64,000 nucleotides of DNA from Phoenix dactylifera (Eukaryota; Streptophyta; Magnoliopsida; Arecales; Arecaceae), in the NCBI RefSeq assembly GCF_009389715.1, contig NW_024068486.1:1-64000 (forward strand), read 5' to 3'. The notes below the pieces were generated by a model. It was not told the DNA's origin and searched no databases. It worked only from the letters and a program-made list of their open reading frames with translations. Position numbers and translations under genes: made by a program. Of this stretch, positions 6,501-59,587 are shown piece by piece. How positions within the stretch are numbered: the first letter of the stretch is position 1; every line of letters starts with the position of its first letter.

Positions 6501-6981
6501 TCAGAAAATCGCATTCGGCATCAAACAGCCACTCTGCAGCCTCCAATAGCCCATTATGAACATAGCCACCATCAAATTTCCTCTTCCCGAGCCTATTATC
6601 CAACAGCATCGCATAATCGCTCTCCTTAGCCATGTGTAGGCCTCTTATAGCAAGGGTAACTTCAGCATGGTCGTGATCGAGGTATATCAAGTAAGTCGGC
6701 GCGCGGCCATGGGTGTCCTCATAGGTCTTGCGGTGAACGACCCACCGGGGATTGATGCCATAGCCACCTGGAGGGGCCCATTGAGGGTGATCAAGATCAT
6801 CCTCATACACAGCAAGGATGAGGCGGCAGAGCCGAGGCACAGGCTCAAATTCATCAGCAGATGCCAGTCCCCAGGTCTCGCTGTCATGGCCAGCGCTGTA
6901 GAGGCAGCGTTGCCACGCCCAGCGAGCACAAGCAAGGCAGTACACACACTCAAGCACAGGGATGCAGCAAGCAAGCGACAT
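507..6981 (-). CDS. Class 3 lipase (sn1-specific diacylglycerol lipase-like), 5 exons
   Basis: Predicted serine lipase of the plant class 3 family (alpha/beta hydrolase acting on acyl-glycerols). Exons on the minus strand, 5' to 3': 6981-6277, 5179-5121, 3820-3692, 2123-1988 and 602-507. They sum to 1,125 nt (374 aa), with phases agreeing at every junction. Exon 1 starts at MSLACCIPVLECVYCLACAR and carries GHSLG (residues 176-180, nucleophile Ser178). Later exons give DDFLPRTATPLEDIFK, CLRCMKDTCIPE and VVRTAVPVDGRFEHIVLSCN, all conserved in plant homologues. Intron 1 uses a GC donor (CAG|GCAAG). The first four exons look intact. Exon 5 does not: family-like pieces MEIPTQQRMERQ, EHNKEHEAAL, PDAYTPSPYG and TFDKKNSTSMAEES lie in changing frames between about 600 and 395, so the in-phase product ends early with an unrelated tail. 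This could be real C-terminal decay or sequence error. The catalytic identity is well supported; the 3' end is not. Confidence 0.85.
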
Positions 6982-7081
6982 TGGAGGGCGAGACTAGGAA
7001 TGGCGGCGCATTGTGATAGCAACTGGAAATTAGGTGGTGACACTGCATTGGCTGGGAACAGAAGGGAATGCGACTAGGTGG

Positions 7082-18073: not shown

Positions 18074-18150
18074 CAGAGAGAGAGAGAGAGATTCACAAAG
18101 CGAATGTTTGGGCTTCGCTCCTTCCGAATCCCCTTTCCAGGCGGCGGGAG

Positions 18151-18162
18151 ATATTATATATG
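18151..18162 (-). promoter_or_regulatory. TATA-like box upstream of the cactin-like gene
   Basis: The minus strand reads CATATATAATAT, 78-89 bp upstream of the start codon, with a (GA)n tract at about 18,075-18,092 between them. Spacing is plausible for a core promoter with a short leader. Inferred from position only. Confidence 0.45.
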
Positions 18163-18239
18163 ATTTTTTGGAGGCGTGCTTGACTAAGTTTGCTTGGGAA
18201 TCCGGATATGGACCAGGTCGGTGACCAATAAACAGTGGC

Positions 18240-18875
18240 TTCTCTCCTACGAGGTTTTAAAATCCTGAGCTACCGAGGTGCCATTTTAGAAAGAATTTAG
18301 GTACCCCAAAATCTTATCTGATAAATAATTTTGGGGCTAAATACCTAAAAAATTAAGCAAGAAGATCGGAAAAATTATTAAATGATCAGATACACCATAG
18401 ATCTAGAATAAAATTATTTTAGGTGAATTTATTTCATCCTAAAATAAAATTATTAAATGATTCATTTTATAGGCCTAATAATTTTTCAAGGGAGAAATGG
18501 AATAACTAAACCGAGATTACTCCAAGCTGGTAATTATTATGGCCTTTAATTACTTCCAATGCTAGCAACCGTAAACATAGCTAAAAAAAATCAAATTAGC
18601 TTTTGGATTTCTGGATTGGTAATACTGGTATGCTTCTTGAAAATAGGCATACACAATGTACTGTCAAGTGAAAGTACCATGGAATTCTCATACTTTTTTA
18701 TTTCCATTCACTAAATATGATGATGTTAAAGTAACAATGTTGTCAAATTTATTCAGAACCCCATATTTTTCTGGGGCATCTCTGGCTTAACACAGGTAGG
18801 CTTCCTGAAAAGGAACTAAACAACCTGAACCCTCGGCTGTTACAACAAATCCAAAAACAAAAGGGGAAGATACTC
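18240..18875. other. Intergenic spacer between the cactin-like and SLH genes
   Basis: AT-rich DNA without recognisable exons. It combines the upstream side of the cactin-like gene with the 3' flank of the SLH-domain gene, both on the minus strand. Confidence 0.5.
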
Positions 18876-35818: not shown

Positions 35819-38800
35819 ATGGCTTCAACCAATACTTCCATTCCTCTTGTTTATGCCATCTGGATCGCGTTCCTCCTTTTCTGTGGATCCGTGCAACTAT
35901 GCCTCTGTTTCAGTGAAAATAGTTCCGAGTCAGGAGGCTGCATAGAGAGGGAAAGGAAGGCTCTTCTTAGCATACGAAAGGGCATCTATAATGCCCACAA
36001 ATGACTCTCTTGGAATGGAAAAGACTGCTGCAGATGGAGAGGAATTCGATGCGACACCATGACCGGACATGTCGTAAAGCTTGACCTCCACTACCCTTAC
36101 CCATATGACGGACGTCGTCCTGATAAAAGTGAGGTAAGTCCTTCACTACACTTGGGACATCTGAATTATTTGGATTTGAGCATGAACAATTTTAGTGGTG
36201 CCCCAATCCCTGACTTCATTGGATCTCTTGCCAAGTTGGAGTATCTAATCCTCTCTAATGCTGGGTTTGGTGGAACAATCCCTCACCAACTCGGGAACCT
36301 CTCAAACTTGCTCTATCTTGATCTCGCTTCAAACCTTCACTACTCTTCGGATGTTGACAATCTTGGCTGGTTACCATCGATCCGTTTCCTGCAGCATCTT
36401 GACATGAGTAATGTCAACCTCTCAAAAGCATCCAACTGGATTCATGTGATCAATATGCTCCCTTCTCTTTCTGTCTTGCGTCTGTTTCGTGCTACTCTTC
36501 CTAGCCTTCCCTCTACACTACCCCATGTTAATTTGCAACAGAACAATCTTAGCGGTCCTTTGCCCAATCAGATTGGAGCACTCCAAAGTTTGGGCTATCT
36601 TGATCTTGGTTTAAATTTATTGGATGGTTCAATTCCTGCATCACTGGGGAAGTTATCTGCCCTATATTATCTGAATCTCGCAGCAAATTCCTTGGCAGGT
36701 GCACTGACTGAAGCCCACTTCGCCAACCTCACAAGCTTATCAAGTTTGGATCTGTCTTATAACTTATTGACAGTAAATGTGAGTCAAGATTGGCTTCCTC
36801 CATTTAAAGCACGCTAGCTACATCATCATGACGTCTTGTCCACTAGGGCCCAAATTCCCTCCATGGCTTCGGAACCAAACTGATTTGACTTTACTGGACC
36901 TATCTAGTGCAGGAATATCAGAAAATTTCCTTGATTGGTTTTCGGACATGCGTCCGCCTATGTACTTTCTTAATGTTTCTCATAATCATATGAAAGGAAA
37001 GCCACCTAGCTTTGAACTGTTAATCAAAATAATAACATGCTAAGATTTAGAATCACAACAATAGTGTATTCAAGTTTGAGAGATACCTGCGGAAGACATA
37101 TTAAAATACGATTCTTCAATCACCTGAAGTAATAGCCGCTGGATCTTTCCTTCCTTGCTCCTCACAAAAAATAGCCGTCAATGGGGCAAGCTATCAACCA
37201 TATGGAGAGGAGAGGGAGACCTAGCCTTTATATAGGAAACATAGAGGAGCCTTCCCATTAAAGGCTCCAAAACTCTGTTTGGATTTTCTGGCCTACATAC
37301 CAAAATTACCACAATAAATAGGACTCAATCCTATACATCCAAGATGCACCAAAGCCCATAAAATAAAATGATCACACATCATATTGGGCTTAACCATAGT
37401 ACCATTCTGAGCCATACGTCTAACCCGTTTTATAAAACAAAAATATACAATTAGTGGAAGCCCATATTTTGAAATTATTCTAACATGAACCTCTACCCCC
37501 CACCCCAATTCCAGGATTAATAGATCTATCCAACAATTTATTCTCTGGACCTATTCTGCCAACCTTGGGTGGTGGTGTCGACCATCTTGGCATTCTGCTT
37601 CTTGTACATAACAGGTTCAATGGCAGCATTCCATCAGCATTTTGTGAGGCAAATAGTCTAAAAGTTCTCAATCTTGCCGATAATGATTTATCAGGAGTTG
37701 TCCCCAACTGTTGGAACAATTCATCTCTTTTGGGAGTCATTGATTTCTCAGATAACAAATTGTCAGGAGGCATTCCTAGCTCAATGGGATCTCTCAGTCG
37801 ACTCATGTCACTGCATTTGAGAGACAACAACTTTTCTGGTAAAATTTCTTTGTCCTTGCAACAGTGCAAGCTGCTGACTACTATTGATCTTGGCAATAAT
37901 AAGTTGTCAGGTAGAATACCTGAATGGATTGGAGGGAGCCTCTTATCATTAAGGGTTCTCCGTCCGCGATCAAATATGTTAGATGGTAATATTCCTTGGC
38001 AACTGTCACTCCTTTCTTCTCTTCAGGTGTTGGATCTTGCTGATAACAAGCTTTCTGGAACTTTGCCACTATCATTTGGTAATTTCATAGCCATGATTAT
38101 GATACAAAATGGGGGCAAACTTGCTCTTTTTGAAAATATGGCCTCCTATTACATTGAAAATATCCAGATAAACACGAAAGGTTCGGAACTCATGTTCACT
38201 AGTGTGTTCTCACTTGTGACAAGCTTAGACCTCTCCGACAACAATATTTTTGGGGAGATTCCTGAGGAGTTGACAAACTTTCATGGGCTTCATTCCTTGA
38301 ACTTATCGGGGAATCATTTGACAGAAAGGATTCCGATCAATATTGGTGCCATGGGGCAATTGGAGCCACTTGATCTGTCGATGAACAACCTATCAAGCAT
38401 AATTCCTACAAGCATCGCATATTTGAATTTTTTGGAGCACCTGAATTTGCCCTACAACAATCTATCAAGAAGGATTCCATCTGGCAACCAACTCCAAATC
38501 TTGAATGATCCATCCATCTACATTAGCAATCAATATCTTTGTGGACTGCCACTGCCAGAAAAATACCCCGGCGATGAACCTGCAGAATGTCCAATAGAAA
38601 AAAAAACAGGATGAAAATGGTTCAAAAATGATATAGCTTTATGTTGGCTTAAGTCCGGAATTTGTGGTTGGCTTCTGGGGATTTTTTGGCACAGTGATGC
38701 TCAAAAAGAGCACAAGGTATGCTTATATCCGATTCATTGACAAGATATGTGATTGGATTTATATGGCTGTAATAATAAATTTTGCTAGGCCAAAGTCCAA

Positions 38801-41120: not shown

Positions 41121-43109
41121 TGTTGCCCAGATAAACAACCCAAGAGGGGGGGGGGGTGAATTGGGTTTTAAAATAATTATTACAATTATTTGATTTGCGA
41201 AATACTAATTAACACTTTTTGCAAGTTGATTAATTAGATGCTATGTGCTGTGAATGAAATGAAAGTAAGAGAGATACACAAACAATCACAAACACAAGGA
41301 TTTTATAGTGGTTCGGAGCTAACCCTTGCTCCTACGTCCACTCCCCAAACCTCACTTGGAAATTCACTATAACCCCTCGGATTACAGCCGGTTGTTTTAC
41401 AAGCTCATAACCAAACTTGTTGTTTTACGAGGTCACAACGAACTCGGTCGGTTTTTCCAGGCTCACCGACTAGAACCACCCCGATTGTTTTTCCGGGATC
41501 ACAATCGAACCCTTACACCGTTGGTTTCAACCTAGGCTCACCAACAAACCTATACACCCTTGATTCAATTCCCTGATTGAATCAAGTAAAGACCAAATGG
41601 AAAGAACAAAGACAAACAGAAAAATAGAGCTTCTGAAAAGCAGATATACAGCGATATAACTAAGAGAGAAGTTTAGAGCCCTCAAACACGTTTGAGTTGG
41701 AGTAGAGAAGGGCTTCTGGAACTTTCTGTCTCCTCTTGAATGTCTGGAAGACTTGAAGGCTGGAGGAGACTTCTTTAATGCTGGGAAGAGTCGGTTGAAT
41801 GGAGTTAATGGTGCTCTTCCTTCTTTTCCGTTGAAAAAATCGTTTGCAGATGAAGGATTCTTGTTTTCTTTGAGTGGAATGTTGCTTCTCTCCTTTGCTA
41901 CAATCTTCTGTGGCTATTTAAGCCATTCCCCACGAAAACTAGCCGTTAGACTCACTTTACTAGCCGTTCTGCACACTCTGCACATCCTGACAATGTGTCC
42001 GTTGGGGTCGAAGTCGACTCGCGCGATCTGGAGTCGACTCGGCTGTAGCGGGAGTCGACTCATGCTTTTTTGGAGTCGGCTCGGCAACTGTTCCGGATTT
42101 AAATTAAAGTGAGCTTCTCGACTGGGAGTCGACTCGACTTAACCCGGAGTCGACTCGCCAAAACCTGGAGCTGACCTGGCATTTTTGGAGTCGGCTCATC
42201 CCATGAAATCCACAGAGCTATTCTTCAACTTGGCCCACTCGAGTCGACTCGGAAATACTGGGAGTCGACTCGGCGCTCAGAGCCCGAACTCCCGATCTTC
42301 TGTCTTTTGGCTCGTCCAGTCTTGGAGTCGACTCGAGCTGTTCCGGAGTCGACTCGGCTCTCAGTTTCCGAAACACAGCCTTCTGTCTTTTTGGTGTAGC
42401 GCTGCCTTGGAGTCGACTCGAGCTGTCTTGGAGTCGACTCGCGTCTCAGAGACAACAATTCGGTCTTCTGTCTTTTTGGGGTCGCACTGTCTCGGAGTCG
42501 ACTCGGGCATTGCGGGAGTCGACTCGGATCTCAGTGTCCGAAAACTGCTTTCTGACTTTTGCCTAGTATAACACTGAGAGTCGACTCTAGCTTTCTTTGG
42601 AGTCGACCTGCCAACCATCGGAGTCGACTCGCGTTCCTCAGGAGTCGACTCGGCTCTCAGGGTCGAAAATTGCTCTCTAACTTTTTGTCTGTAACTCCCT
42701 GGAGTCGACTCATACTACTCCAGAGTCGACTCGGCAAGCTTCGGAGTCGACTCGCACTCTTCAGGAGTCGACTCGTTGACAGGTTTTGAATTGAGTCTTT
42801 CTGTTCATCTGTCTGTTCTCAGTCGGAGTCGACTCGTAATGTTCCGGATTCGACTCGAGCCTGTGCCAGTGCTTCTGATACGCTTGGAGTCGACTCGTAA
42901 TATCCCGGAGTCGACTCGAGTCTCAGACTTTGGTTCAACTTGACTTCTTAACTTATCCAAAATATCTTGAACCAAGTCTAGACGCACTTAACCATAAATT
43001 TATAAGATTTTCACTGAAACACTAGATTGAATTCATTAGTAAGCATAAGATATACTCAAATGCTTTGATCTCATCAAAATCAAATAGGGTTATGATCAAT
43101 CACTCCACA
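41121..43109 (-). repeat. 3' LTR of the Sirevirus
   Basis: A 1,989-bp copy nearly identical to 50,804-52,791. Plus-strand ends are TGTTGCCCAG and CACTCCACA. It contains a G-run near 41,146-41,156 and a dense array of the GAGTCGACTC palindrome at about 42,010-42,930. Confidence 0.95.
42008..42930. repeat. GAGTCGACTC palindrome array in the 3' LTR
   Basis: About 28 copies (roughly 22 exact) of the 10-bp palindrome GAGTCGACTC, nearly always in the 12-bp context GGAGTCGACTCG on the plus strand. Many occur as pairs about 25 bp apart, within a larger unit of about 85-95 bp that includes a CTTCTGTCTTTTTGG block. The core contains CpG. Mirrored in the 5' LTR. Confidence 0.93.
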
Positions 43110-43385
43110 CTCTCCCCCTTTTTGATGATGACAAAACATTGAGTATATGTAAAGTGAATTGCTCAACAAACAAGGAGAATTATAGTAAAATTTTAAAATG
43201 AATTCAAATGTCTGGTTATTTAATTTATCCAAACCTGAAAGGTGTGAAACAATAAATTTTGAAGTTAAGGCTCCCCCTTTCATTTGAAATTATATAAGCC
43301 TTCATATCATGCAATCAATTGTTTGGCTTATATGTCTTTAATGATTTTGCTTTCTTAAAAGTTCAGATTCTCCCCCTCAACATAT
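43109..43385 (-). promoter_or_regulatory. Polypurine tracts of the Sirevirus (main plus extra copies)
   Basis: Adjoining the 3' LTR, the minus strand reads AAAAAGGGGGAGAG directly before TGTGGAGTG, the expected plus-strand priming site. Further purine runs of the same type are visible at about 43,270-43,280 (AAAGGGGGAG) and 43,371-43,380 (GAGGGGGAG). Repeated polypurine tracts are a known Sirevirus trait. Confidence 0.8.
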
Positions 43386-43857
43386 GCATTCAACTTGTTT
43401 TGATTTTTTGAATTTTCTTTTAATGCATTGAAGCTTTTGAACTTAAATTTTTGGTTTTTAGAGGAAAAATCTGTCACTTTGTTCTTGAGTAGGATTCAAC
43501 TAATCTCCGAATATCCCTTGAATAGATTCTGGAGATTACTCCATTAGGAGCCCCAACAGAGAGATAATGAGCCTCGAGGTATCAAATCCACTTAGAACAA
43601 ATTATTGTGTATTTTAAAAGTTTTTCTTTTTATGGATTTTCATTGATTCCTATTTCCTTTTACATATCTATTAAATATATTTCTCCTCCTTTTGTCATTG
43701 CATCAAAAAGGAAGTAAGCAGAACACACAAGCAAGCGGAGATCAATTTGCACAATTTTGAAGAAATTTGTCTACTCATTGTATTGATGTATATGTAAGTA
43801 CATTTGTGAATACAATAAGTAAAGCAGAAAATATATGTCAAAATAAAACAAAATCAG

Positions 43858-44124
43858 CTAGGGTCTCCTCGAGGATGTGGCTCCTCCTCTCAATCTGTTT
43901 TGCTCCATGAGGAGACCGACCCCGTCCACAACATTCCCTAGCTGGGAGATAATGGCCGAGGTGGCCCTGCTATGTGTCGTGGAGAGCTCGGTCAGAGTCT
44001 CCTGAAGTGTGTCCAGCTTGGCGATCAGCACATTCGCCAAGCACTCGGCCCCCTGACTAGTAGTCCTCATATCGTGTCGGATGTCATTGCGCATCTTCCG
44101 AGTGTTGCTCGTGACATCGCTCAT
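43858..44124 (-). CDS. Short ORF downstream of the Sirevirus third ORF
   Basis: An 88-codon open stretch with a helical, polar composition (e.g. IAKLDTLQETLTELSTTHSR), which could form a coiled coil. It lies on the element strand between the third ORF and the polypurine tracts. Coiled coils are reported for Sirevirus env-like products, but no domain is certain here. Treated as part of a fossil element. Confidence 0.4.
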   Translation of the reverse strand: MSDVTSNTRKMRNDIRHDMRTTSQGAECLANVLIAKLDTLQETLTELSTTHSRATSAIISQLGNVVDGVGLLMEQNRLRGGATSSRRP

Positions 44125-44257
44125 GTTGGAGAACTGGCTTGTATCAGGCTCCTGACGTTGAAGATCTCCTACCTCAGATGAGCCGTCATCTCGGTCACGG
44201 CTGATAAGGAGGGAACCAATGCAGAGGAGGGTGCAGGGGCTGGACCTCGGAGCTCCC

Positions 44258-45394
44258 TCAGCAGGTCGTCCCGAAGATCTCTAACAATCTCCTGCCGCAA
44301 CTCCCGGAGCTGCTCAGGAGAAATCCGAACCCCATGGGCTGAGTAGGTGGAGCTGAGGAGGAGGGTCCGACTGAGGTGGTGGGAGCTGAGGTGGAGGGAA
44401 AGGTAGGAAAGTCTGAATCAGGATCTGGACTGGGGGAATGTCTGGTAGTAGGTGTGGAGGAAGATGGTTTCCTGACCCAAGTTCCCTCCACCTTACGAAA
44501 CTCCATCCTGTGTAGGGTTCCCTCACGCATGCGATCTGTCCATCGCAATGCGCGAGAGGGTTCCCCCTCAGGAATAGGAATCTCGGACTCCCTAAAAATA
44601 AGTGTGTACATCATCCCATAAAGGAGGGTGAGCCTAGGTCTATCTAGTGGCTCACATAAGTATCTATAGATCATCTTGGGGAAGTTGATAGGGGTGTCTT
44701 GGAGAATGTAGTACATGAGGGCTAGGTCCCTCTCAGACACAAAATCAAATCGGCCGGTCTTAGGGAACAATGATCTAGAAATGATGCTCAGGAGGAGCCG
44801 CATCTCAACAGAAAGTGAGCTAGCGGACACCTCATCTAAGGGGGACTGGGGTGGACTCCCTAAAATGGTCGTAAGGGCCTCAGTCCTATCTTCGGGGTGT
44901 GTAGGAGATACCCCTACTTGGGGAAGATGGAGGATTTGAGCTATGAAATCCTCGGAAATAAATAATGGGACACCGGCTACGGTTCCTTCTATCCCACCAT
45001 TGCCCCTACGCACAGTTCCATAAAACTCCCTAACTAGACCTGGGTATGTGGGGAGATCTAAGGAACAAAAGAACTCTAAACCCTGGGCCCTCAACCTCTC
45101 CCCTATGGTGAAGCCCTCCCGGGAGAGATAGTCAAAGTCGACGTATCTCCCGATGGAGACCGCCTTCCCGGCGCACGGTCGTGAGGGAACCGCCCTCGGC
45201 GGGGAACGAGCCGGAGGTTGTGGCCTCACGGGATCGTTCCGAGCTTTGGAACGTCGCTCGGCACCGGTCGCGGGTTGGGGCCTCTTCCGGCTCGGGACAA
45301 CTGACTTATGGGGCATGGTTGACCTAGGGATGAGGAAAACACCTAAGGGACGGAAGAAGGTCGACGGAAAAGCCCTAAGGACGGTCGGAGACAT
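44258..45394 (-). CDS. Sirevirus third ORF (env-like position), 378 aa
   Basis: Open stretch after pol on the element strand. The N-terminal part is basic and proline-rich (PSRKRPQPATGAERRSKARN). The middle (about residues 80-290) resembles the 'putative plant transposon protein' domain often found in this position (VDFDYLSREGFTIGERLRAQ; LVREFYGTVRRG; GVPLFISEDFIAQILHLPQV). The C-terminal part is Ser/Pro/Thr-rich. No convincing signal peptide or fusion peptide is visible, so 'env-like' refers to position only. It probably requires a subgenomic or spliced message, as proposed for the lineage. Confidence 0.75.
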   Translation of the reverse strand: MSPTVLRAFPSTFFRPLGVFLIPRSTMPHKSVVPSRKRPQPATGAERRSKARNDPVRPQPPARSPPRAVPSRPCAGKAVSIGRYVDFDYLSREGFTIGERLRAQGLEFFCSLDLPTYPGLVREFYGTVRRGNGGIEGTVAGVPLFISEDFIAQILHLPQVGVSPTHPEDRTEALTTILGSPPQSPLDEVSASSLSVEMRLLLSIISRSLFPKTGRFDFVSERDLALMYYILQDTPINFPKMIYRYLCEPLDRPRLTLLYGMMYTLIFRESEIPIPEGEPSRALRWTDRMREGTLHRMEFRKVEGTWVRKPSSSTPTTRHSPSPDPDSDFPTFPSTSAPTTSVGPSSSAPPTQPMGFGFLLSSSGSCGRRLLEIFGTTC

Positions 45395-45489
45395 TGTCGG
45401 AGTCGGCTCTAGGGTTTGTGAACAGTGGCGGCGGTGAATAGAAGTATTGATTAAACGCTTGGATTAGGGTTAAAAACTCGGATCCCGAC

Positions 45490-45712
45490 CGCGAGTCGAC
45501 TCCTGTAAGTCTCGAGTCGACTCGACCTCGAGTCGACTCCAAAATATGCACGAGTCGACTCCCCTTATGCGCCTATTGACCTCGAGTCGACTCCCGAATA
45601 TATGCGAGTCGACTCCCTTATGCTGCCATTGATCTCAAGTCGACTCCCGTACATGTGCGAGTCGACTCTCCCTTACGAGCCGACTCTGAAACTTACTTGA
45701 GTCGTCTCAAAC
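45490..45712. repeat. Internal GAGTCGACTC array, inverted relative to the LTR arrays
   Basis: Nine or ten copies of the same palindrome between pol and the third ORF. Here the plus-strand context is CGAGTCGACTCC, the reverse complement of the GGAGTCGACTCG context in both LTRs. Spacing is about 22-30 bp in part, with some decayed copies at the left-to-right end (CGAGCCGACTC, TGAGTCGTCTC). Confidence 0.9.
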
Positions 45713-45858
45713 TCTGGCACGTACCTAAAAATCATGCTATTTTCGTGCCGAATGAGGGAAATTCACTAAGTTATGATCTGATTTGATGATCATAGATAAG
45801 AAACTCTATATTTTGCACAATCTAATCATCAAAATCAATGAGCTAGAAGAGAATATCA

Positions 45859-48800
45859 CTAGGATGGATCAATCACTCCTAATCCTCTCCTAAGCACACT
45901 AAATCTCTCTTCACTCAAGGGTTTTGTGAAGATATCAGCTAATTGATCATCAGTGCAAACAAATTGAAGTGTCACATCACCATTCATTACATGATCTCTT
46001 ATGAAGTGATGTCTTATCTCAATATGTTTACTTCTTGAATGCTGAATTGGATTTTTAGTTAGATTAATGGCACTTGTATTATCACAATTAATGGAAATTT
46101 TATCTTGTTTAATGCCATAATCTTCCAATTGTTGTTTGATCCACATGATTTGAGCACAACAACTCCCGGCTGCAACATATTCAGCTTCAGCAGTAGATAA
46201 TGCAACCGAGTTTTGTTTCTTGCTAAACCATGAGATTAAGTTTTCTCCTAGGAATTGACATGACTCGCTGGTGCTTTTTCTATCAAGTTTACATCCAGCA
46301 AAGTCTGAATCTGTATATCCTATTAAGTTCAGACTAGATTCTTTAGAATACCATAGACCTATATTTTTTGTTCCTATTAGGTATTTAAAGATTCTCTTGA
46401 CTGCAATTAGATGAGATTCCTTAGGATTAGACTGATATCTAGCACACATGCAAACACTAAACATGATATCAGGTCTACTTGCAGTGAGATACAATAAAGA
46501 TCCTATCATACCTCTATATAACTTTTGATCTACAGATTTACCTGATTTATCTTGATCTAATTTGCATGATGAGCTCATGGGTGTGCTGATTGACTTGTTT
46601 CCTTCCATATCAAACTTCTTAAGCATCTCCTTGATGTATTTGGCTTGATTGATGAAGATGCCTTCTTCAGATTGTTTGATTTGAAGCCCGAGAAAATAGT
46701 TCAGCTCTCCCATCATACTCATCTCAAACTCACTCTGCATCAAGTCAGCAAATTCTTCGCAGAGGCGATTGTTAGTAGCACCGAAAATAATATCATCAAC
46801 ATAAATCTGCACTAATAACATATCTTTGTTTTTCTTCTTTAGAAACAATGTTGTATCTACATTTCCCCTAGAGAACTTATGTTCTAGTAAGAATTTGCTA
46901 AGCCTCTCATACCATGCTCTAGGTGCTTGTTTCAAACCATAAAGTGCTTTGTTCAGTTTATACACATGATTAGGGTATTGATGATTTTCAAAATCAGGAG
47001 GTTGTTCTACATACACCTCCTTATTAATATACCCATTTAAAAATGCACTTTTTACATCCATTTGAAATAATTTGAAATTCTTAGAGCATGCAAATGCTAA
47101 TAATAATCTAATTGCTTTGAGTCTAGCTACAGGTGCAAAGGTTTCATCAAAATCTATACCTTCTTCTTGATTATACCCCTTTGCTACTAGTCTTGCCTTA
47201 TTCCTTATTACAATTCCATTTTCATCAAGTTTGTTTTTATATATCCATTTGGTACCTATGATTGAATATTCAGAAGGTCTTTCAACTAGATTCCATACCT
47301 TGTTTCTAGTAAATTGATTTAATTCTTCTTGCATTGCATTTATCCAATTTACATCTTTTTCAGCTTCTTCTATGTGTTTGGGCTCAAAATGTGAGACGAA
47401 AGCTAGATGATTGTTTAAGTTCCTAAGAGATGCTCTAGTTCTAACAGGTTGAGATGGATCATCTAGAATTAATTCCTTAGGATGCCCGTGAGCAAACCTC
47501 CAAGCCTTAGTCAGCCCATGATCCATAATAGCCTCTTGGCTTGATGATGCACCTCCAATTAATTTTTGATTATCATCTTGTAATGTCATCTCATCTATCT
47601 TTTCTTCAAGAATTTCAGCATCATCATCAAGATTAACTCTCTTACTAGATGAGGTATCACTAGAATCATCAAAAACAACATGTATGGATTCTTCTATAAC
47701 TAGGGTTCTTTTATTAAAGACTCTATAGGCTTTACTAGTTGTAGAGTACCCCAAGAATATACCCTCATCAGATTTAGAGTTAAATTTTCCTAGATTATCT
47801 TTCCCATTATTATGAACAAAACACCTACATCCAAAAACATGAAAGTAATTTACCTTTGGTTTTCTGTTTTTCCAAAGTTCATAAGGTGTTTTCTTTATAA
47901 TGGGTCTCAATAAAACTCTATTTAATATATGACATGAAGTATTGATGGCTTCTCCCCAAAAGTACTTAGGGAGGTTACTTTCACACAACATAGTTCTAGC
48001 CATTTTCTCTAGAGTTCTATTTTTCCTCTCCACAACTCCATTTTGTTGTGGTGTCCTAGGTGCAGAAAAATTATGAGTTATTTTCTTTTTACTACAAAAC
48101 TCATCAAATAAATGATTTTCAAATTTGGTACTATGGTCACTTCTAATAGCTATGACTGAAGTATCTCTAGCATTGGTTACTTCCTTATGAAATTTCTTAA
48201 ACACTGAAAATGCTTGATCTTTATGAACTAAGAACATGACCCAAGTGTATCTAGAAAAATCATCTACAATAACTAGACCAAATTTATTTCCACCTAGACT
48301 TGTGGTTCTAGTTGGTCCGAATAGATCCATGTGTAGTAGTTCTAGAGGTCTAGAGGTAGAGACACACTTTATGGATTTAAAGGAGTTCCTTGATTGTTTG
48401 CCATATTGACAAGCTTCACATATTTTATTCTTTTCAAACTTTAGTTTTGGCAAACCTATCACAGAATCTCTTTTAACTAGTTTAGATATTGTGTCCATGC
48501 TTGCATGCCCTAACTTACGGTACCATAACCAACTAGCATCATTATCCTTAGTTTCATTAACAACTAAACATGGGTTATGTTTGGCAAGATCCTCAAGGTC
48601 TACAACATACACATTTCCACGTCTTATTCCTTTAAAAACTAAACTATTGTCACTTGAGTTGGTTATGATGCATAGTGATGGTTTGAACAAAACATCAAAA
48701 CCTTTATCACACAATTGACTAATGCTAAGTAAATTATGCTTAAGACCATCAACATATCGAACATTATCAATAAAAGTTGAAGGAGTAATTTGTACCTTAC

Positions 48801-48921
48801 CTATAACAATGATGTGACCTTGGTTATTGTCTCCAAACGTCACAGCACCTCCCTTCTTAGCTTCAAGGGTGAAAAATTGATCATTGTCACCCGTCATGTG
48901 TCTTGAGCAGCCACTATCCAA
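45859..48921 (-). CDS. Sirevirus Pol polyprotein, 1,020-codon open frame
   Basis: Domains in order: aspartic protease (LDSGCSRHMTG start), GAG-pre-integrase (WYRKLGHASMDTISKL, with CEACQYGKQ), integrase core (HMDLFGPTRT; VDDFSRYTWVMFL; SAPRTPQQNGVVERKNRTLE), reverse transcriptase (KARLVAKGYNQEEGIDFDET; LFQMDVKSAFLNG; QIYVDDIIFGATN) and RNase H (YTDSDFAGCKLDRKSTSESC; STAEAEYVAAG). Integrase precedes RT, the Copia order. The frame is long and open and lies in a separate frame from gag. Copying of the element RNA would occur in virus-like particles in the cytoplasm. Confidence 0.97.
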   Translation of the reverse strand: MDSGCSRHMTGDNDQFFTLEAKKGGAVTFGDNNQGHIIVIGKVQITPSTFIDNVRYVDGLKHNLLSISQLCDKGFDVLFKPSLCIITNSSDNSLVFKGIRRGNVYVVDLEDLAKHNPCLVVNETKDNDASWLWYRKLGHASMDTISKLVKRDSVIGLPKLKFEKNKICEACQYGKQSRNSFKSIKCVSTSRPLELLHMDLFGPTRTTSLGGNKFGLVIVDDFSRYTWVMFLVHKDQAFSVFKKFHKEVTNARDTSVIAIRSDHSTKFENHLFDEFCSKKKITHNFSAPRTPQQNGVVERKNRTLEKMARTMLCESNLPKYFWGEAINTSCHILNRVLLRPIIKKTPYELWKNRKPKVNYFHVFGCRCFVHNNGKDNLGKFNSKSDEGIFLGYSTTSKAYRVFNKRTLVIEESIHVVFDDSSDTSSSKRVNLDDDAEILEEKIDEMTLQDDNQKLIGGASSSQEAIMDHGLTKAWRFAHGHPKELILDDPSQPVRTRASLRNLNNHLAFVSHFEPKHIEEAEKDVNWINAMQEELNQFTRNKVWNLVERPSEYSIIGTKWIYKNKLDENGIVIRNKARLVAKGYNQEEGIDFDETFAPVARLKAIRLLLAFACSKNFKLFQMDVKSAFLNGYINKEVYVEQPPDFENHQYPNHVYKLNKALYGLKQAPRAWYERLSKFLLEHKFSRGNVDTTLFLKKKNKDMLLVQIYVDDIIFGATNNRLCEEFADLMQSEFEMSMMGELNYFLGLQIKQSEEGIFINQAKYIKEMLKKFDMEGNKSISTPMSSSCKLDQDKSGKSVDQKLYRGMIGSLLYLTASRPDIMFSVCMCARYQSNPKESHLIAVKRIFKYLIGTKNIGLWYSKESSLNLIGYTDSDFAGCKLDRKSTSESCQFLGENLISWFSKKQNSVALSTAEAEYVAAGSCCAQIMWIKQQLEDYGIKQDKISINCDNTSAINLTKNPIQHSRSKHIEIRHHFIRDHVMNGDVTLQFVCTDDQLADIFTKPLSEERFSVLRRGLGVIDPS

Positions 48922-48973
48922 GTACCAACAATTTTTGTTGTCCTTGGCTGCAAGACACTCCTACACAAGCAAA

Positions 48974-50755
48974 TCATACAGTTTTAGGTACCCAAGTTTT
49001 CTTGGGTCCTTCATGGTTAGTAATATTGGTTCCTTTTGGAACCCAAACCCTTTTAATTTTTCTTTTGATTTTTCCTTTTCTAAAATCACATACATTTGCT
49101 TTGTGTCCTAATGTTCCACAGCAAAAACATGTTATTTTCTTAGTTTTGTTTTCTCCTGCTTTAACAAAGAAATTACTAAGGAGTTTTTGCCTATTGTTAG
49201 GTTTATACCCTAAACCAGCTCTATTGAATACAGCTCGTTGACTACTAAGTATCATCTCTAATTTTTCTGAGCTATATGTAAATCGTTCTACAAAAGGCTT
49301 GTATTTTTCAAGATCTAGTGTCAATTTTTGTTTTTCTGTTTTTAGATCATTTAGTTCTTTTGTGAGACTCTCATTTAAAATATATTTATTATTTTTAAGT
49401 TCTAATATTTCTTTGTTCAGCCTTTCATTATCTTTAGTTAAGGTATTATTCTTTTGTATCAAGATTTGGTTGCTTGTTTTAAGTTCTGCATTTTCTTTAA
49501 TAAGAACATCTTTATCCTTAACTAATGTATCATACTTACGGAGATGTGTTTGGTTAGTTACTTTTAATTCTTTGTTTTTAAGGTTTATTGTCTTGTATTC
49601 ATCCATTAATTCATTGAAAGCATCATATAATTCATCGAAAGTAAAATCTAAATGTGTTCCGGATATTACCTCATTGTCGTTAGCCATAAAACAAATGTTG
49701 GCCTTTTCTTCTTGCTCCTCATCCGATGATGATGAAGATGTATCGGAGTCCGATAGGGTGGAGACGAGGACTTTCTTTTTCTTGTGCTTGCTCCCCTTCT
49801 TCAGCAAAGGACACTCAGCTCTGAAGTGCCCCGGCTTCTTACACTCATAACATCCGATCCCCTCATTTTCTCTTTTCTTACCTTTATCCTTGTGATAGGA
49901 ACCTGAGGGGCCTCTCCTTTGATGTGAAGATTTCTTTCGGTTGATGAATCTTCTGAATTTTCTTACAAGGAGAGCCTCATCATCATCTCCCTCATTATCT
50001 TCCTCTTCACTGCTACTGCTGCAAGACAAGTCTTTGTTAGTAGACACCGATTTTAATGCTATTACCTTTTTCTTGTGAGAGGACTCCTCTTCATTATGTT
50101 GTTTCATGGTGAGCTCGTGCGTCATTAGAGATCCAAGAAGCTCCTCAAGTGGAAGCTTGTTCAAGTCCTTGGCTTCTTGGATAGCTGTCACTTTGGCTTC
50201 CCATAACCTTGGTAGATAGCGAAGAATCTTCCTGACAAGCTCACTGTTAGTATAATTTTTGCCAAGACTTTTTAGGCCATTGGCAATGTCAGTAAATCTA
50301 GTGAACATGCAAGTGATTGTTTCATTAGAATCCATCTTAAATAGTTCATACTTATGAACCAATATATTTATTTTGGATTCTTTGACTTGATTCGTGCCCT
50401 CATGGGTCACTTCAAGTCTATCCCAAATCTCTTTTGCAGAATTGCAAGTAGAGACCCTATTGAATTCATTCCTATCTAATGTACAGTAAAGCACATTCAT
50501 TGCTTTGGCATTGAGTTGTGCCTTCCTCATGTCATGGTCATCCCAATCCTTTTCAAGTTTGGGTACAGTGACACCCTCTACATAGATGGATGGGATGTAT
50601 GGTCCATTTAATATAATGGTCCACATCTCATAGTCTTGGGCTTGGATAAATATTCTCATCCTAGCCTTCCAATATGAATAGTCGGATCCATTAAAGAATG
50701 GGGGTCTTTGGGTGGATTGGCCCTCAATGTGGGAAGATCCAAATGGGGTTGTCAT
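48974..50755 (-). CDS. Sirevirus Gag, 593-codon open frame
   Basis: Starts MTTPFGSSHIEGQSTQRPPF, followed by a plant Copia Gag region (FNGSDYSYWKARMRIFIQAQ; AKEIWDRLEVTHEGTNQVKE; LPLEELLGSLMTHELTM). Two CCHC zinc knuckles are visible: CYECKKPGHFRAEC (about residue 300) and CFCCGTLGHKANVC (about residue 543), with a long Lys/Asn/Leu-rich coiled-coil-like stretch between them. An extended Gag with a C-terminal knuckle fits Sireviruses. Confidence 0.95.
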   Translation of the reverse strand: MTTPFGSSHIEGQSTQRPPFFNGSDYSYWKARMRIFIQAQDYEMWTIILNGPYIPSIYVEGVTVPKLEKDWDDHDMRKAQLNAKAMNVLYCTLDRNEFNRVSTCNSAKEIWDRLEVTHEGTNQVKESKINILVHKYELFKMDSNETITCMFTRFTDIANGLKSLGKNYTNSELVRKILRYLPRLWEAKVTAIQEAKDLNKLPLEELLGSLMTHELTMKQHNEEESSHKKKVIALKSVSTNKDLSCSSSSEEEDNEGDDDEALLVRKFRRFINRKKSSHQRRGPSGSYHKDKGKKRENEGIGCYECKKPGHFRAECPLLKKGSKHKKKKVLVSTLSDSDTSSSSSDEEQEEKANICFMANDNEVISGTHLDFTFDELYDAFNELMDEYKTINLKNKELKVTNQTHLRKYDTLVKDKDVLIKENAELKTSNQILIQKNNTLTKDNERLNKEILELKNNKYILNESLTKELNDLKTEKQKLTLDLEKYKPFVERFTYSSEKLEMILSSQRAVFNRAGLGYKPNNRQKLLSNFFVKAGENKTKKITCFCCGTLGHKANVCDFRKGKIKRKIKRVWVPKGTNITNHEGPKKTWVPKTV

Positions 50756-50789
50756 TTTGATCTTTTACTCTTTGGGTAAAAGAGTTCCT

Positions 50790-50801
50790 GCTCTGATACC
50801 A
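50790..50801 (-). promoter_or_regulatory. Primer-binding site (initiator Met tRNA) of the Sirevirus
   Basis: The minus strand reads TGGTATCAGAGC, complementary to the 3' end of plant initiator methionyl-tRNA, two bases inside the 5' LTR. This fixes the element's orientation as minus. Confidence 0.95.
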
Positions 50802-50803
50802 CT

Positions 50804-52791
50804 TGTTGCCCAGATAAACAACCCAAGAGGGGGGGGGGGTGAATTGGGTTTTAAAATAATTATTACAATTATTTGATTTGCGAAATACTAATTAACACTT
50901 TTTGCAAGTTGATTAATTAGATGCTATGTGCTGTGAATGAAATGAAAGTAAGAGAGATACACAAACAATCACAAACACAAGGATTTTATAGTGGTTCGGA
51001 GCTAACCCTTGCTCCTACGTCCACTCCCCAAACCTCACTTGGGAATTCACTATAACCCCTCGGATTACAGCCGGTTGTTTTACAAGCTCACAACCAAACT
51101 TGTTGTTTTACGAGGTCACAACGAACTCAGTCGGTTTTCCCAGGCTCACCGACTAGAACCACCCCGATTGTTTTTCCGGGATCATAATCGAACCCTTACA
51201 CCGTTGGTTTCAACCTAGGCTCACCAACAAACCTATACACCCTTGATTCAATCCCCTGATTGAATTAAGTAAAGACCAAATGGAAAGAACAAAGACAAAC
51301 AGAAAAATAGAGCTTCTGAAAAGCAGATATACAGCGATATAACTAAGAGAGAAGTTTAGAGCCCTCAAACACGTTTGAGTTGGAGTAGAGAAGGGCTTCT
51401 GGAACTTTCTGTCTCCTCTTGAATGTCTGAAAGACTTGAAGGCTGGAGGAGACTTCTTTAAAGCTGGGAAGAGTCGGTTGAATGGAGTTAATGGTGCTCT
51501 TCCTTCTTTTCCGTTGAAAAAATCGTTTGCAGATGAAGGATTCTTGTTTTCTTTGAGTGGAATGTTGCTTCTCTCCTTTGCTACAGTCCTCTGTGGCTAT
51601 TTAGCCATTCCCCACGGAAACTAGCCGTTAGACTCACTTTACTAGCCATTCTGCACACTCTGCACATCCTGACAATGTGTCCGTTGGGGTCGGAGTCGAC
51701 TCGCGCGATCTGGAGTCGACTCGGCTGTAGCGGGAGTCGACTCATGCTTTTTTGGAGTCGGCTCGGCAACTGTTCCGGATTTGAATTAAAGTGAGCTTCT
51801 CGACTGGGAGTCGACTCGACTTAACCCGGAGTCGACTAGCCAAAACCTGGAGCTGACCTGGCATTTTTGGAGTCGGCTCATCCCATGAAATCCACAGAGC
51901 TATTCTTCAACTTGGCCCACTCGAGTCGACTCGGAAATACTGGGAGTCGACTCGGCGCTCAGAGCCCGAACTCCCGATCTTCTATCTTTTGGCTCGTCCA
52001 GTCTTGGAGTCGACTCGAGCTGTTCCGGAGTCGACTCGGCTCTCAGTTTCCGAAACACAGCCTTCTGTCTTTTTGGTGTAGCACTGCCTTGGAGTCGACT
52101 CGAGCTGTCTTGGAGTCGACTCGCGTCTCAGAGACAACAATTCGGTCTTCTGTCTTTTTGGGGTCGCGCTGTCTCGGAGTCGACTCGGGCATTGCGGGAG
52201 TCGACTCGGATCTCAGTGTCCGAAAACTGCTCTCTGACTTTTGCCTAGTATAACACTGAGAGTCGACTCTAGCTTTCTTTGGAGTCGACCTGCCAACCAT
52301 CGGAGTCGACTCGCGTTCCTCAGGAGTCGACTCGGCTCTCAGGGTCGAAAATTGCTCTCTAACTTTTTGTCTGTAACTCCCTGGAGTCGACTCATACTAC
52401 TCCAGAGTCGACTCGGCAAGCTTCGGAGTTGACTCGCGCTCTTCAGGAGTCGACTCGTTGACAGGTTTTGAATTGAGTCTTTCTGTTCATCTGTCTGTTC
52501 TCAGTCGGAGTCGACTCGTAATGTTCCGGATTCGACTCGAGCCTGTGCCAGTGCTTCTGATATGCTTGGAGTCGACTCGTAATATCCCGGAGTTGACTCG
52601 AGTCTCAGACTTTGGTTCAACTTGACTTCTTAACTTATCCAAAATATCTTGAACCAAGTCTAGACGCACTTAACCATAAATTTATAAGATTTTCACTGAA
52701 ACACTAGATTGAATTCATTAGTAAGCATAAGATATACTCAAATGCTTTGATCTCATCAAAATCAAATAGGGTTATGATCAATCACTCCACA
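50804..52791 (-). repeat. 5' LTR of the Sirevirus
   Basis: A 1,988-bp copy of the 41,121-43,109 sequence, with the same G-run near its left edge and the same palindrome array at about 51,690-52,610. Sequence flanking its right edge carries the ACATG duplication. Confidence 0.95.
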
Positions 52792-55275: not shown

Positions 55276-55283
55276 GGTCCAAT
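55276..55283. repeat. Left 8-bp target duplication of the hAT-type element
   Basis: GGTCCAAT directly left of TAGGGG; identical to 59,580-59,587. Confidence 0.95.
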
Positions 55284-56087
55284 TAGGGGTGGCAATCGGG
55301 TCGGGTTGAACATAAACGGGTCGGGTCATATATAGGTCGGGTCAGAAAATCATAAACCTGAACCCGACCTGTTTATTAAATAGATCAGAAATTGCAACCT
55401 GAACCTGACCTGTTTAATAAACAGGTAACCCGACCCGACCCGTTTAACCTGTTTAATAAACAGGTCACCTGTTTGCCCAACCCGACCCGACCCGTTTAAC
55501 TTGTTTAGTCTAACCCATGCTGAACCGACCTGTTTAACCTGTTTATCCAACCCGACCCGACCTGTTTAACCTGTTTGTCTAAAGCTATCGGTAATTAAGA
55601 AAATAAGTTAAAAAAATGGTTGCTCGGCGATCACTAAAGCTGAAAACCACAATCTACTCTGTTCCAGTTTGACTTACTCAATGATCATGTCCGTCGGAGT
55701 CTGGCTTTCATATGCCAGTAACTGACAACCAAGAGATAGCAGCAAATCGTCCATCCCATCAGATCAAGACATCATCAATTCACGGACATCCACAAAATGT
55801 CCATACCGAGAAAATAGGGCATAGAGAACGACCACTCGATATATTAAGAAAGAATAGCACTCAAGGCTATACAGGAATGATATCCAAATTACGAAGTCAA
55901 TCCGATCCCAGTTCCCAAACAGGCAAGAAAATATTAGAATGAAAATACTCATTCACAAGGGGGAACACTTAACCACAATTCATCAACCAAGCACTAGTTT
56001 TTTATGTAGTAGCAAATGATATCACTATACTCAAAAGCACCAGTTTGAGTGGGAGAGGGAGGTGCAGTGATCTCATATCCGCTCATA

Positions 56088-56987
56088 CTAGCATTTGAAG
56101 CCATGGCAAATGGACAAAATTATGATGAGGATTAATGCAATGATGATGCCCAAGACGATCAGTTTTATCTTCATGTTCTGAAACCACATCTTCCTTCTCA
56201 TCTTTGTTCCTTGCTGCCTGAAATCTTGAGCCTGCAAACCCCAAACACAAGAAAACAATTTAATGTTGAACAGCCTTGAGGGAAAAAATAATCACCAAAA
56301 AAAGAAATTGAATGCAAACCATCCCTGTCCACGAATGGTACTGCCAGAAGCAAATCCAAGAAAACATCCAGATGCCCACTAAGGGTTGGTGAACGTAAGT
56401 TACAGACCTGATAGCGAAGGTTTTCAGTTTTGTCGACAAGCAACTCGATTTTCTCCCCACGATCAAGAACCTGAAAAGATGTTCTCAAGGAATTAATTAT
56501 GCTACTTGTCAAGGAAAAAGGAATTACTGGCAACATTCCATAATTAAGGACAACAAAATCATTAAAATAATCACAAGTTAAACCATTAAAAGAGATACCA
56601 TGATGTACCTTTTCAATATTTTCCATCATAACTCCTTGAACTTCTGAGACCTGCGCTTTCACTTTCGCCAGTTTGCTTATTTCCTCAGGGACGTCAGGGT
56701 GATCCACACAATACTGCATGTGCTCATTCAGTTTTGGCCTGAAATTTTAGTGAATATTTTTTTAACGTTAGTCAATAATTTTGCCATCAAAAGAAACATA
56801 AAATCACAGCAGTATCTTTGAATGGTTAGGAAGGAAAAAATATACCCAAACTCTCGGTTGAGGCCGTTAGTTGCAGCAGTTGCAGCTTTTCCTCCTCCAT
56901 ATCTTTTGATGAAATCATCCTTAATCCTCTCCAGGAAGGCAATGGGAATTTGTCTGCCTGCTAACTCAACTGCAACTACACAATATG
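56088..56987 (-). pseudogene. VAMP72-type R-SNARE gene fragment (exons 2-5) inside the hAT-type element
   Basis: VAMP72 proteins are longin R-SNAREs that drive secretory and plasma-membrane vesicle fusion. Exons: 56987-56846, 56738-56609, 56470-56408 and 56231-56088, all GT-AG with matching phases and introns of 107-176 bp. They encode the second half of the longin domain ([40 protein letters not shown]), the full R-SNARE helix ([20 protein letters not shown], then [20 protein letters not shown], with the central Arg in LDRGEK), the basic MRRKMW, and the membrane anchor ending SICHGFKC before TAG. HPDVPEE carries three extra residues (DVP) relative to the usual HPEE. Exon 1, with the start codon and first longin half (normally a SLIYSFVARGTV-like start), is absent between 57,000 and the element end. 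Every retained exon is open. It is best seen as a captured partial copy, possibly expressed from another start. Confidence 0.88.
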
Positions 56988-57461
56988 CTGCAATATCCCA
57001 GATGGATTTTACCCACTAATAATGAGTGCATAATGGTAAAGAACTTTTATATTCATGTTCTCAGTTTAAATATGCAAAATTCTCCTGACAGATTATCCAG
57101 CATAATTAAATAGCACTGTGCTTTTTCGATTTAAAGAAACTATTAAAGCATGAACCGAGACCACAATATATCCTTCATGTAAGGTATGGAAGGACGATAA
57201 AGGCAATATAAGAAACTATACAAGAAAGACCACTGATAACAATGAAGAAGAAAAAGCTTACTGACCATTTTATACAGAAAAATGCACATGCATGATATGA
57301 TGTGAAACAAAAGAGAATATAAGGTCAACTGGAAACACAACAGTGTAATTTACAACTGAACTCATCTTCCAGCAAAAAAACCAGTCATACTTCATCCGAT
57401 CAAACTATAATGCTTATTAAAGAGAGAAATTTACAGGGCTTAAATGATGTCAGAAGTAACT

Positions 57462-58339
57462 AGTAAGGCAAAAGCCACAGAGCCACCCAATGTCAGAAGC
57501 ACTGGAGTCTGGAACATACACAAGCTACCCACGAGTCAAATCAATATCAATGTGGGTGCTCCGTGCTCCTCATTTCCATTTCCAAAACAAAACAGACCCA
57601 ACGAAGACAGTTGAAAACCTTTAGTCAGAGCATCAAGAACACCACTGGACTCTAGATACTTCCTGAAAGCCTCCTTCTTTGCTTCCCTTTCCTGCACAAA
57701 ACATCATCTACTTAGGCACACACTTTGAAACGAATTATTTAAGATAATGATCCATTTCCAAAACAAAGTTGTTAGCGTCTTGGTCATAGAAGCTGCTTTG
57801 GAAAACAGTGCACTTCTCACTTCTCAGACTGCTTTATATTCTTTCTTCTAAGACCCTTTCCATATGCAGTAGCAAACAAACAAAAAATATTCAGCTTATA
57901 AACTGTCTACATGATTATCCAAAGAGATAGATGCATGGTTGGAAATAGCTAAGTGATTGCAATTGCTTTTCTGCTATCATCCTGTTAAAAAGAAAAACAA
58001 AACGACATGTTTCAATGCTGTTTGGAAGGGAAATGGAAAGAAAATAAGTTAAAAAAATACCACAGAGTAAGGCAAAAGCCACAGAGCCACCCAATGTCAG
58101 AAGCACTGGAACATACACAAGCTACCCACGAGTCAAATCAATATCAATGTGGGTGCCCCGTGCTCCTCATTTCCAAAAGAAAAACAAAACGACATGTTTC
58201 AATGCTTCTCTGCTATCATCCTGTTTCAATGTCAGTAGATACTTCTAAGTGATTGCAATTGCTTCTCTGCTATCATCCTGTTAAAAAGAAAAACAAAACG
58301 ACATGTTTCAATGCTGTTTGGAAGGGAAATGGAAAGAAA
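57462..58339. repeat. Nested short duplications inside the hAT-type element
   Basis: 57,462-57,578 recurs at 58,066-58,175 (shared AAGCCACAGAGCCACCCAA; one 7-bp indel). 57,951-58,043 recurs at 58,247-58,339, and part of it a third time at 58,174-58,223 (shared AACAAAACGACATGTTTCAA). The order of copies implies at least two local duplication steps after or during assembly of the element. Confidence 0.9.
57619..57691 (-). pseudogene. MYCBP-like (c-Myc-binding protein) exon fragment inside the hAT-type element
   Basis: A 73-nt open segment between a TTTGTGCAG acceptor and an AAAG|GTTTTC donor encodes EREAKKEAFRKYLESSGVLDALTK. The FRKYLESSGVLDALTK block is the hallmark of MYCBP/AMY-1 homologues. 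The next conserved exon (normally starting VLVALYE) is not found downstream, and the first exon is not certain upstream. It ends in phase 1, and the next exon in line, VAMP72 exon 2, starts with the two bases needed to complete a codon (Ala). Confidence 0.8.
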
Positions 58340-58458
58340 TAGAAGTATCTACTGTACGAATAGTTGTGTACGACATCATGCGACAATAGATATTTTTAGA
58401 ATAAGGGCTAAGCACTATTAGACATGTTAGCAATTCAATCGAAAGATTCGAAACAAAC

Positions 58459-59110
58459 CAAGCTTGGTAGCCAGGCAATGTGGACTGCAATCGTGGGTCC
58501 CTATAAACCAGAAAGAGACAGACAATGAGACCAAAAACAGAAACAGCAAAAGGAGTTGCATTTCTAATCAAGAGCCCAGTAGCCAGAAAGAGGTTACGCC
58601 AATACCCTCCAATGTTCATCACAAAACGCAGCGAGAAACCTATACTCATGATTTATTTCTCAATGGGGGCATCAAGATTTCTCACAAACCAAACTAAATA
58701 CTTCCATATCGCGCCAAGAATGCCACATAACGCTACGAACTATCCCCCTGCTCTTCTTGAAACAGTTGATCACAGGAAAAAATGGCCCCCTCTAAAGAAA
58801 AAAAACAATAGACTCCAAGAATCCAAGATAAATAACGGGCCCTTATCTGAAACAAGAAACCGCTAAAAAACCGAACCCATAGCGTCAGGAGACGGAGAAA
58901 AAAGGAAGGAAGAATTTGTACCAAAGCTCCCAACGAGAAGAAGAACAGACGTAGTACTTGTGCTCACATGGCGGTTGCCGAAGAGAATCTTGACGGAGTA
59001 CTTGTGCGGGGCGGAAGTGGTGGTGCTCTCGTCGCCCCTCTCTTCCGACTACTCTGCAGAGATACTACTGCGAGGAGGAGGAGCCGAGGACGCCTGCACT
59101 GCACGAGGAG
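58459..59110 (-). pseudogene. Unidentified exon-like pieces inside the hAT-type element
   Basis: The minus strand at about 59,035-58,970 reads STTTSAPHKYSVKILFGNRH and ends at a CAT|GTGAGC donor, in a GC-rich stretch (58,950-59,200) that looks like a captured gene start. A 42-nt segment at 58,500-58,459 has a TTTATAG acceptor and a TTG|GTTTGT donor; it reads GPTIAVHIAWLPSL if joined in phase or DPRLQSTLPGYQA in another. Upstream, CTTTAGGGTTAGGGACC-like telo-box words (59,205-59,275) resemble those near plant promoters. I do not recognise a protein family, and the source gene may be the MYCBP-like gene, a third gene, or neither. Confidence 0.35.
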
Positions 59111-59579
59111 GCGGAAGTAGCCGGCACGGGGGAGGAGAGGGCGGAGGTCCGGAGGAGGGGGGAAGAGGGACAGGCAAAGAACTCGGGCGGCGGCGGCGCT
59201 AGAGCTAACCCTAAGGTCCCTAACCCTAAAGAGAATGTGGAGTGATGGTCTGATGGAGTCCCTAACCCTAAAGAGAAGCGGGGAGCTGGACCGACGCGGG
59301 GAGCTGGGCCGAGCGGTGAGTTGGGCCGAGCGGTAGCCTGTAGGCCTTGTGGATTGTGAGCCTGTGGTCTTTATTTCCTTATCTATCAGCCCAAAAATTA
59401 AACAGGTTATACGGGTTAAACGGGTCAGACATCTAAAACCCGTATCCGACCCAATTACTAAACAGGTTAAATGGGTCGACCTGTTTACGACCCGAATCCA
59501 TTTAGGCCAAACCCAAACCTGTTTATGGTGGGTCGAACACGAGTCGGGTTGGCGGGTCGGTCATTTTTTGCCACCCCTA

Positions 59580-59587
59580 GGTCCAAT
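59580..59587. repeat. Right 8-bp target duplication of the hAT-type element
   Basis: GGTCCAAT directly right of CCCCTA; identical to 55,276-55,283. Confidence 0.95.

Follow-up and report, generated by a model that had tools for sequence, protein, structure and literature searches.

The stretch of DNA analysed here (the window) comprises 64,000 nucleotides of the date palm, Phoenix dactylifera (assembly GCF_009389715.1, contig NW_024068486.1, positions 1 to 64,000 of the forward strand), and its positions 55284-59579 are a single hAT element that carries pieces of host genes. We read it as a Pack-hAT, a gene-bearing and non-autonomous member of an Ac/RICESLEEPER-like hAT family, which was probably (at about 0.88) built by capture during gap repair and moved by transposase supplied in trans. 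An initial annotation of the same DNA had proposed a Pack-type hAT assembled at the DNA level from fragments of at least two genes. Our data support this proposal, with three source loci matched. They also go beyond it in two respects: a third source lies in the position of the transposase gene, and the genome contains transposase-bearing relatives, one of them with part of the VAMP72 cargo.

The perfect ends and target site duplication of the initial annotation were recovered: the 12-bp terminal inverted repeats TAGGGGTGGCAA agree at 12/12 positions with zero mismatches, and the 8-bp duplication GGTCCAAT is perfect on both sides. The annotation had also described mirrored subterminal arrays, and here only one part stood. 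The repeats are strong, with AAACRGG common to both ends (13 copies on the left and 5 on the right, versus 2 in 3656 bp of interior). Exact GGGTCGGGT, however, is not mirrored, with 7 copies in the left 320 bp (2 forward, 5 reverse) and 0 in the right 320 bp. AAACRGG resembles the AAACGG repeat of Ac, as given in an excerpt of PMC3260210. The left arm, over its full length, is 94.8-98.4% identical to those of the relatives on contigs C285, C288, C11 and C9 and of C5b. Transposase exons gave no match in the window element at E 1e-3.

Allowing at most 1 mismatch, the end 12-mer occurs three times in the window versus 0.21 expected. We searched the 773.08-Mb assembly (2391 contigs, the window sitting on C839) and obtained 769+807 exact matches, compared with 9+7 for the reversed control. 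Four pairs of ends were read on contig C1; three have a perfect 8-bp duplication and one does not. A pair of ends with an 8-bp duplication (≤1 mismatch) was present at 13 of 29 loci, window included. These loci had been picked for matching the element, together with the window's own surroundings, and ends were counted at ≤2 mismatches. The count carried an 8-kb length limit, so the 9.1-kb copy at C5:9.86 Mb was recorded separately; C288 was likewise recognised outside the count.

Intron-containing exons of a VAMP72 R-SNARE gene, reported initially, are indeed present: exons 2-5 with their introns, matching the Pfam families Synaptobrevin (1.6e-13) and Longin (4.5e-9). The parent was sought elsewhere in the genome and found on another contig, C75, as a complete gene of five exons, with identities of 97.2% over 55647-57201 and 96.8% over 57200-57450. 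The introns in the element align to those of the source. Because introns are retained in the cargo of both identified genes, capture took place at the DNA level; capture from RNA was rejected on this ground. Compared with C75, the element has 1.65 kb of intron 1 gone at 57200/57201. At this site some 1.5 kb is likewise present in a VAMP72 paralogue on C439 (about 82%), and the stretch was therefore most likely lost from the capture. Substitutions relative to C75 are concentrated in the first 200 bp (12/35). Of the 509 ungapped columns in the overlap with C288, 12 are variable; C288 joins the elements against C75 at 10 of the 12 and sides with C75 against the elements at one. At 7 of those 10 the C439 paralogue sides with the elements. 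From this pattern the assembled C75 allele is judged not to be the exact template of the capture.

The MYCBP-like exon was corroborated by a DNA match to a MYCBP-like gene on C16, 97.8% identical over 57578-57755 and covering one 73-nt exon with its intron ends. Two more MYCBP-like stretches adjoin the matching C16 stretch, and the locus is a MYCBP-like gene, possibly partial. On its own the exon had no Pfam match; 22 of its residues align with human MYCBP at 68%. The VAMP72 and MYCBP exons are all on the minus strand, in keeping with the single orientation annotated initially. The third segment is about 90% identical to C3 over 58472-58955, where the C3 match resembles a 5' leader and intron, and it occupies the place of the transposase gene in C11, C9 and C288. 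No gene was recognised in 4.5 kb of this third source by eye and open frames, no profile search having been run.

The genome search also returned the further copies that the initial annotation had suggested looking for. Near-full copies of the chimera lie on C765, C1498, C2228 and C5. The first three have flanks that are 98-99.8% alike and therefore represent one site, with the duplication ATTGGGAG and a one-base irregularity in C2228; three separate insertions were rejected for the same reason, and these contigs are probably haplotigs or a segmental duplicate. The copy at C5:9.86 Mb has the duplication AATGAGGG. The chimera is thus found at three target sites, each with a different 8-bp duplication (GGTCCAAT, ATTGGGAG and AATGAGGG), and the two sites outside the window imply that it moved as a unit. 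Its length is 4.2-4.3 kb when a later insertion in the C5 copy is excluded; this insertion (L036 3330-8116) is ~4.8 kb long, ends in an A run and apparently has a 4-bp duplication. Pairwise differences between the copies are 0.4-1.75% (ten pairs), and 0.93-1.75% between the window and the others. C2228 is noisy, with single-base indels, and supplies the highest values. With a palm substitution rate near 2.6e-9 per site and year, 1% divergence corresponds to roughly two million years.

Three relatives, C11, C9 and C5b, have both arms in common with the window element, perfect 8-bp duplications, and transposase exons on the minus strand. The C11 transposase matches Pfam zf-BED (4.7e-8), hAT-like RNase-H (3.6e-29) and Dimer_Tnp_hAT (9.9e-31), and tblastn located corresponding exons in C9, C5b and C288. 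Among the best 120 of 3372 matches, its nearest counterparts are plant proteins that bear the names RICESLEEPER-like or Ac transposase. The C5b gene is interrupted by stops; little of its BED exon is left, and its core exon has lost the beginning. C11 has an apparent 1-bp shift between BED and core exons, and in C9 and C288 the two are in one frame. C288:40261-46360 is a complete 6100-bp element with a perfect duplication (CATGCAAC), an open-looking transposase and some of the VAMP72 cargo. By their agreement at 10 of the 12 variable sites, we regard the VAMP72 sequences of C288 and the window element as the same capture. In both, arm base 55646 is where the left VAMP72 joint falls. C285 has the MYCBP insert, has no VAMP72 sequence, and retains the ~142-bp stretch that VAMP72 replaces in the window. 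C288, C285 and C277 have an alternative right-hand region unlike that of the window, of which C5c has only the last stretch. These patterns indicate that captures and arms have been reshuffled among family members.

Two further features of these relatives were recorded. A segment of ~820 bp adjoins the start of VAMP72 exon 5 in C288 (L040:2146-2970), C5c (L042) and C277 (L043). C5c (L042, C5:2.94 Mb) is a compound element, in which positions 1137-4043 contain two left ends in tandem (232 bp + 364 bp) inside one 8-bp duplication.

The joints between cargo and element are informative about how the captures may have arisen. At the left joint of the MYCBP segment, element and source have CCAAAACAAA in common, a 10-bp microhomology at 57582-57591. 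Random element/source joints reached ≥10 bp in 8/300,000 trials (rate 2.7e-5), a chance test that covered this joint only. At its right joint the sequence resumes 17 bp earlier in the element, duplicating TCCATTTCCAAAACAAA, and the 17-bp segment accordingly stands on both sides of the insert (57575-57591 and 57751-57767); C11 represents the state without the insert. The VAMP72 block stands in for the ~142-bp element stretch. Its right joint lies within a short stretch of similarity; at the internal loss in intron 1, about 2 bp are common to both sides. The left joint of the third segment combines about 4 common bp with a 3-bp filler, and at its right joint eight bases, ACTTGTGC, recur in the element 44 bp away as templated filler. 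The 10-bp microhomology, 17-bp duplication, templated filler and replaced ~142-bp stretch fit gap repair with template switching.

We therefore suggest a model in which excision or breakage of a family element would leave a gap, and the gap would be filled by synthesis that switches template into host sequences at short homologies. Such switching probably occurred on separate occasions, replacing the short left stretch and, at some point, the transposase too. Arms and cargo would also have been exchanged between family members, and the finished element would be mobilised in trans by transposase from relatives such as C9 or C288. Excerpts of the literature contain related proposals: template switching at microhomology (median 2 bp) for animal Pack-TIRs (PMC8277862) and, as a mention, repair errors after excision (PMC3260210).

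Several observations weigh against this model. Clear microhomology is not found at every joint: the left joint of the VAMP72 block looks nearly blunt or contains some 3 bp of filler, whereas at the right joint of the MYCBP segment only about 3 bp are in common. Since C3 is only about 90% identical, the true source of the third segment may be another locus. The order of the MYCBP and VAMP72 captures is not fixed, because the stretch that would hold the MYCBP insert is missing from C288. Two stops, at query residues 430 and 436, close the core-exon match by tblastn in C9 and C288, the putative donors of transposase; we interpret them as marking an intron ahead of the final exon and not as damage. 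Transposition itself is deduced from sequence only.

A different route to the same structure would be the insertion of two family members close together, followed by mobilisation of both, with the host DNA between them, as one larger element. An excerpt of PMC8903248 proposes such tandem re-mobilisation for Pack-TYPE elements including hAT, and the tandem left ends of C5c are what it would allow. The model predicts internal ends, whereas none was found within 2 mismatches in the window element. Furthermore, the MYCBP and VAMP72 sources are on separate contigs (C16 and C75), and neither the 10-bp homology and 17-bp duplication at MYCBP nor the defined ~142-bp replacement at VAMP72 would be predicted. 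We consider this route unlikely for the window element.

The abundance of the end sequence in the genome could also mean that the two ends belong to separate short elements flanking a normal host locus. This reading is next to impossible given the perfect common 8-bp duplication, the presence of the chimera at two further sites with other perfect duplications and the location of the source genes elsewhere; the three different target duplications led us to reject it. Nor is there any realistic chance that a Pack-MULE or Helitron has been misread as a hAT. Mutator Pack-MULEs have a 9-bp duplication and long inverted repeats, whereas the element has an 8-bp duplication and 12-bp ends. Helitrons have no target duplication and end in 5'TC...CTRR3', and here both a duplication and inverted ends are present. 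MULEs, CACTA and Helitrons are the classes that an excerpt of PMC3260210 names as taking up gene fragments, but such an identity is refuted by the hAT transposase of relatives with the same arms. The coordinates of the element and its cargo are collected in the following table.

Features of the hAT element and its captured cargo (positions in the window)
Feature	Position	Strand	Remark
Target site duplication, left copy	55276..55283		GGTCCAAT
Left terminal inverted repeat	55284..55295	+	TAGGGGTGGCAA, exact match
Left arm, hAT family	55284..55646		subterminal AAACRGG / GGTCGGGT repeats
Captured VAMP72 block	55647..57450	-	3' region, exons 5 to 2, intron-1 sequence; source C75
VAMP72 exon 5	56088..56231	-	SNARE end, transmembrane segment, stop
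VAMP72 exon 4	56408..56470	-
VAMP72 exon 3	56609..56738	-	9-bp in-frame insertion common to five near-full copies
VAMP72 exon 2	56846..56987	-	end of longin domain
hAT-family sequence	57451..58472		downstream of transposase gene in C11/C9; ~600-bp repeated unit; interrupted by MYCBP insert
Captured MYCBP-gene segment	57592..57750	-	source C16
MYCBP exon	57619..57691	-	73 nt
Third captured segment	58473..58958		best source C3 at about 90%; ends approximate
Junction with templated filler	58948..58963		ACTTGTGC, repeat at 58992-59007
Right arm	58962..59579		includes region upstream of transposase in C11/C9/C5b
Right terminal inverted repeat	59568..59579	-	exact match
Target site duplication, right copy	59580..59587		GGTCCAAT

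With respect to the transposase of related elements, the VAMP72 and MYCBP exons are in sense orientation, and the cargo could be transcribed and spliced. With splice sites taken from the sequence, VAMP72 exon 2 continues the frame of the MYCBP exon, leaving 183 codons open in the window and 182 in C5a; with a leader exon, the open frame extends to 210 and 209 codons respectively. In-frame splicing was assembled for these two copies and not for C765, C1498 and C2228. The leader exon region (window 58968-59048, minus) reads SAPHKYSVKILFGNRH ahead of the splice donor. Its DNA is retained in short relatives (C1b, C115 about 93%), and the region may be an older captured fragment.

Orientation and the in-frame joint would both suit a domesticated, functional gene, in which splicing would link the leader and the MYCBP exon to VAMP72 exons 2-5 and so yield a short R-SNARE. 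We nevertheless think this very improbable. A single joint has roughly one chance in three of matching in phase. No in-frame Met precedes VAMP72 exon 3, whether in the leader exon, in the MYCBP exon or in VAMP72 exon 2; translation from the Met in exon 3 would yield an R-SNARE without longin domain. The coding substitutions not common to all copies change amino acids (4 in the window, 1 in C5a and 2 in C765, one of the latter also in C1498 and C2228), and C5a has lost one codon; one synonymous difference from C75 occurs in every copy. Across the copies the VAMP72 exons showed no sign of selection, the numbers being small. Among the best 120 of 2521 protein matches to the chimera, none contains the MYCBP exon motif, and a chimeric protein in the database was rejected on this basis. 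The named entries in this set are VAMP72-type proteins; none is Phoenix-named, many being unnamed. The cargo is most likely decaying passenger DNA. The boldest reading makes the element an exon-assembly machine: captures would be kept in sense and in compatible splice phase, so as to give a chimeric transcript and a VAMP72 that has no longin domain, only SNARE motif and membrane anchor, and acts on secretion, and a still-autonomous C288 would spread the same SNARE piece with its own transposase. We hold this to be far-fetched.

Elsewhere in the window, positions 41500-52500 contain a copia-type LTR (long terminal repeat) retrotransposon, whose gag and pol frames are long, open and minus-strand. 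They are flanked by two pairs of direct repeats (at least 300 nt, 98%) at a spacing of 9.68 kb. Downstream of pol, a separate 401-aa frame (44258-45463, minus) matches Pfam Transposase_32. Pieces of ordinary plant genes are also present, namely class 3 lipase (6178-6993), cactin (16772-18256) and a leucine-rich-repeat protein (37484-38614).

The initial annotation had regarded multi-gene cargo in hAT elements as little reported. This overestimates the novelty, because Pack-hATs and Ds elements with gene fragments have already been published. Among the matches listed in searches of open-licence PMC papers, we found no accounts of capture-bearing hATs in palms, which is a weak negative, and the 12-base end retrieved three papers, unrelated by title. 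The kind of element is already known from maize, grapevine and frog; the value here lies in the completeness of the series in one genome, which holds the source genes, transposase-bearing relatives, single-capture elements and, at three sites, the multi-source element in its finished form. For several joints, reading can thus take the place of modelling. This bears on how cut-and-paste transposons acquire host genes, which excerpts of PMC8903248 and PMC8277862 present as still debated between gap repair and joint re-mobilisation.

Pack-hATs, most abundant in maize according to an excerpt of PMC8903248, resemble the date-palm element in having hAT ends, an 8-bp duplication and host coding DNA in a non-autonomous element. 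Unlike the Pack-hATs as that excerpt presents them, the date-palm element has three sources, and for it the source loci and joints have been identified, along with relatives that bear a transposase and partial intermediates. Maize Ds2-22 and Ds-l4-354 are likewise hAT (Ac/Ds) elements with gene exons and introns copied at the DNA level; in the available text of PMC3260210 they have one gene fragment each, whereas the date-palm element combines several sources and occupies three sites. Grapevine Hatvine-6, as described in part of PMC2528002, is a hAT family in which elements sharing a transposase bear variable genic stretches. C288 is comparable to these, in contrast to the window element, which is without transposase. 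The frog Pack-hAT-N8_XT, in the portion of PMC8277862 that describes it, is also a multicopy, capture-bearing hAT with three distinct target duplications, but it is an animal element and carries a single 291-bp UTR (untranslated region) fragment.

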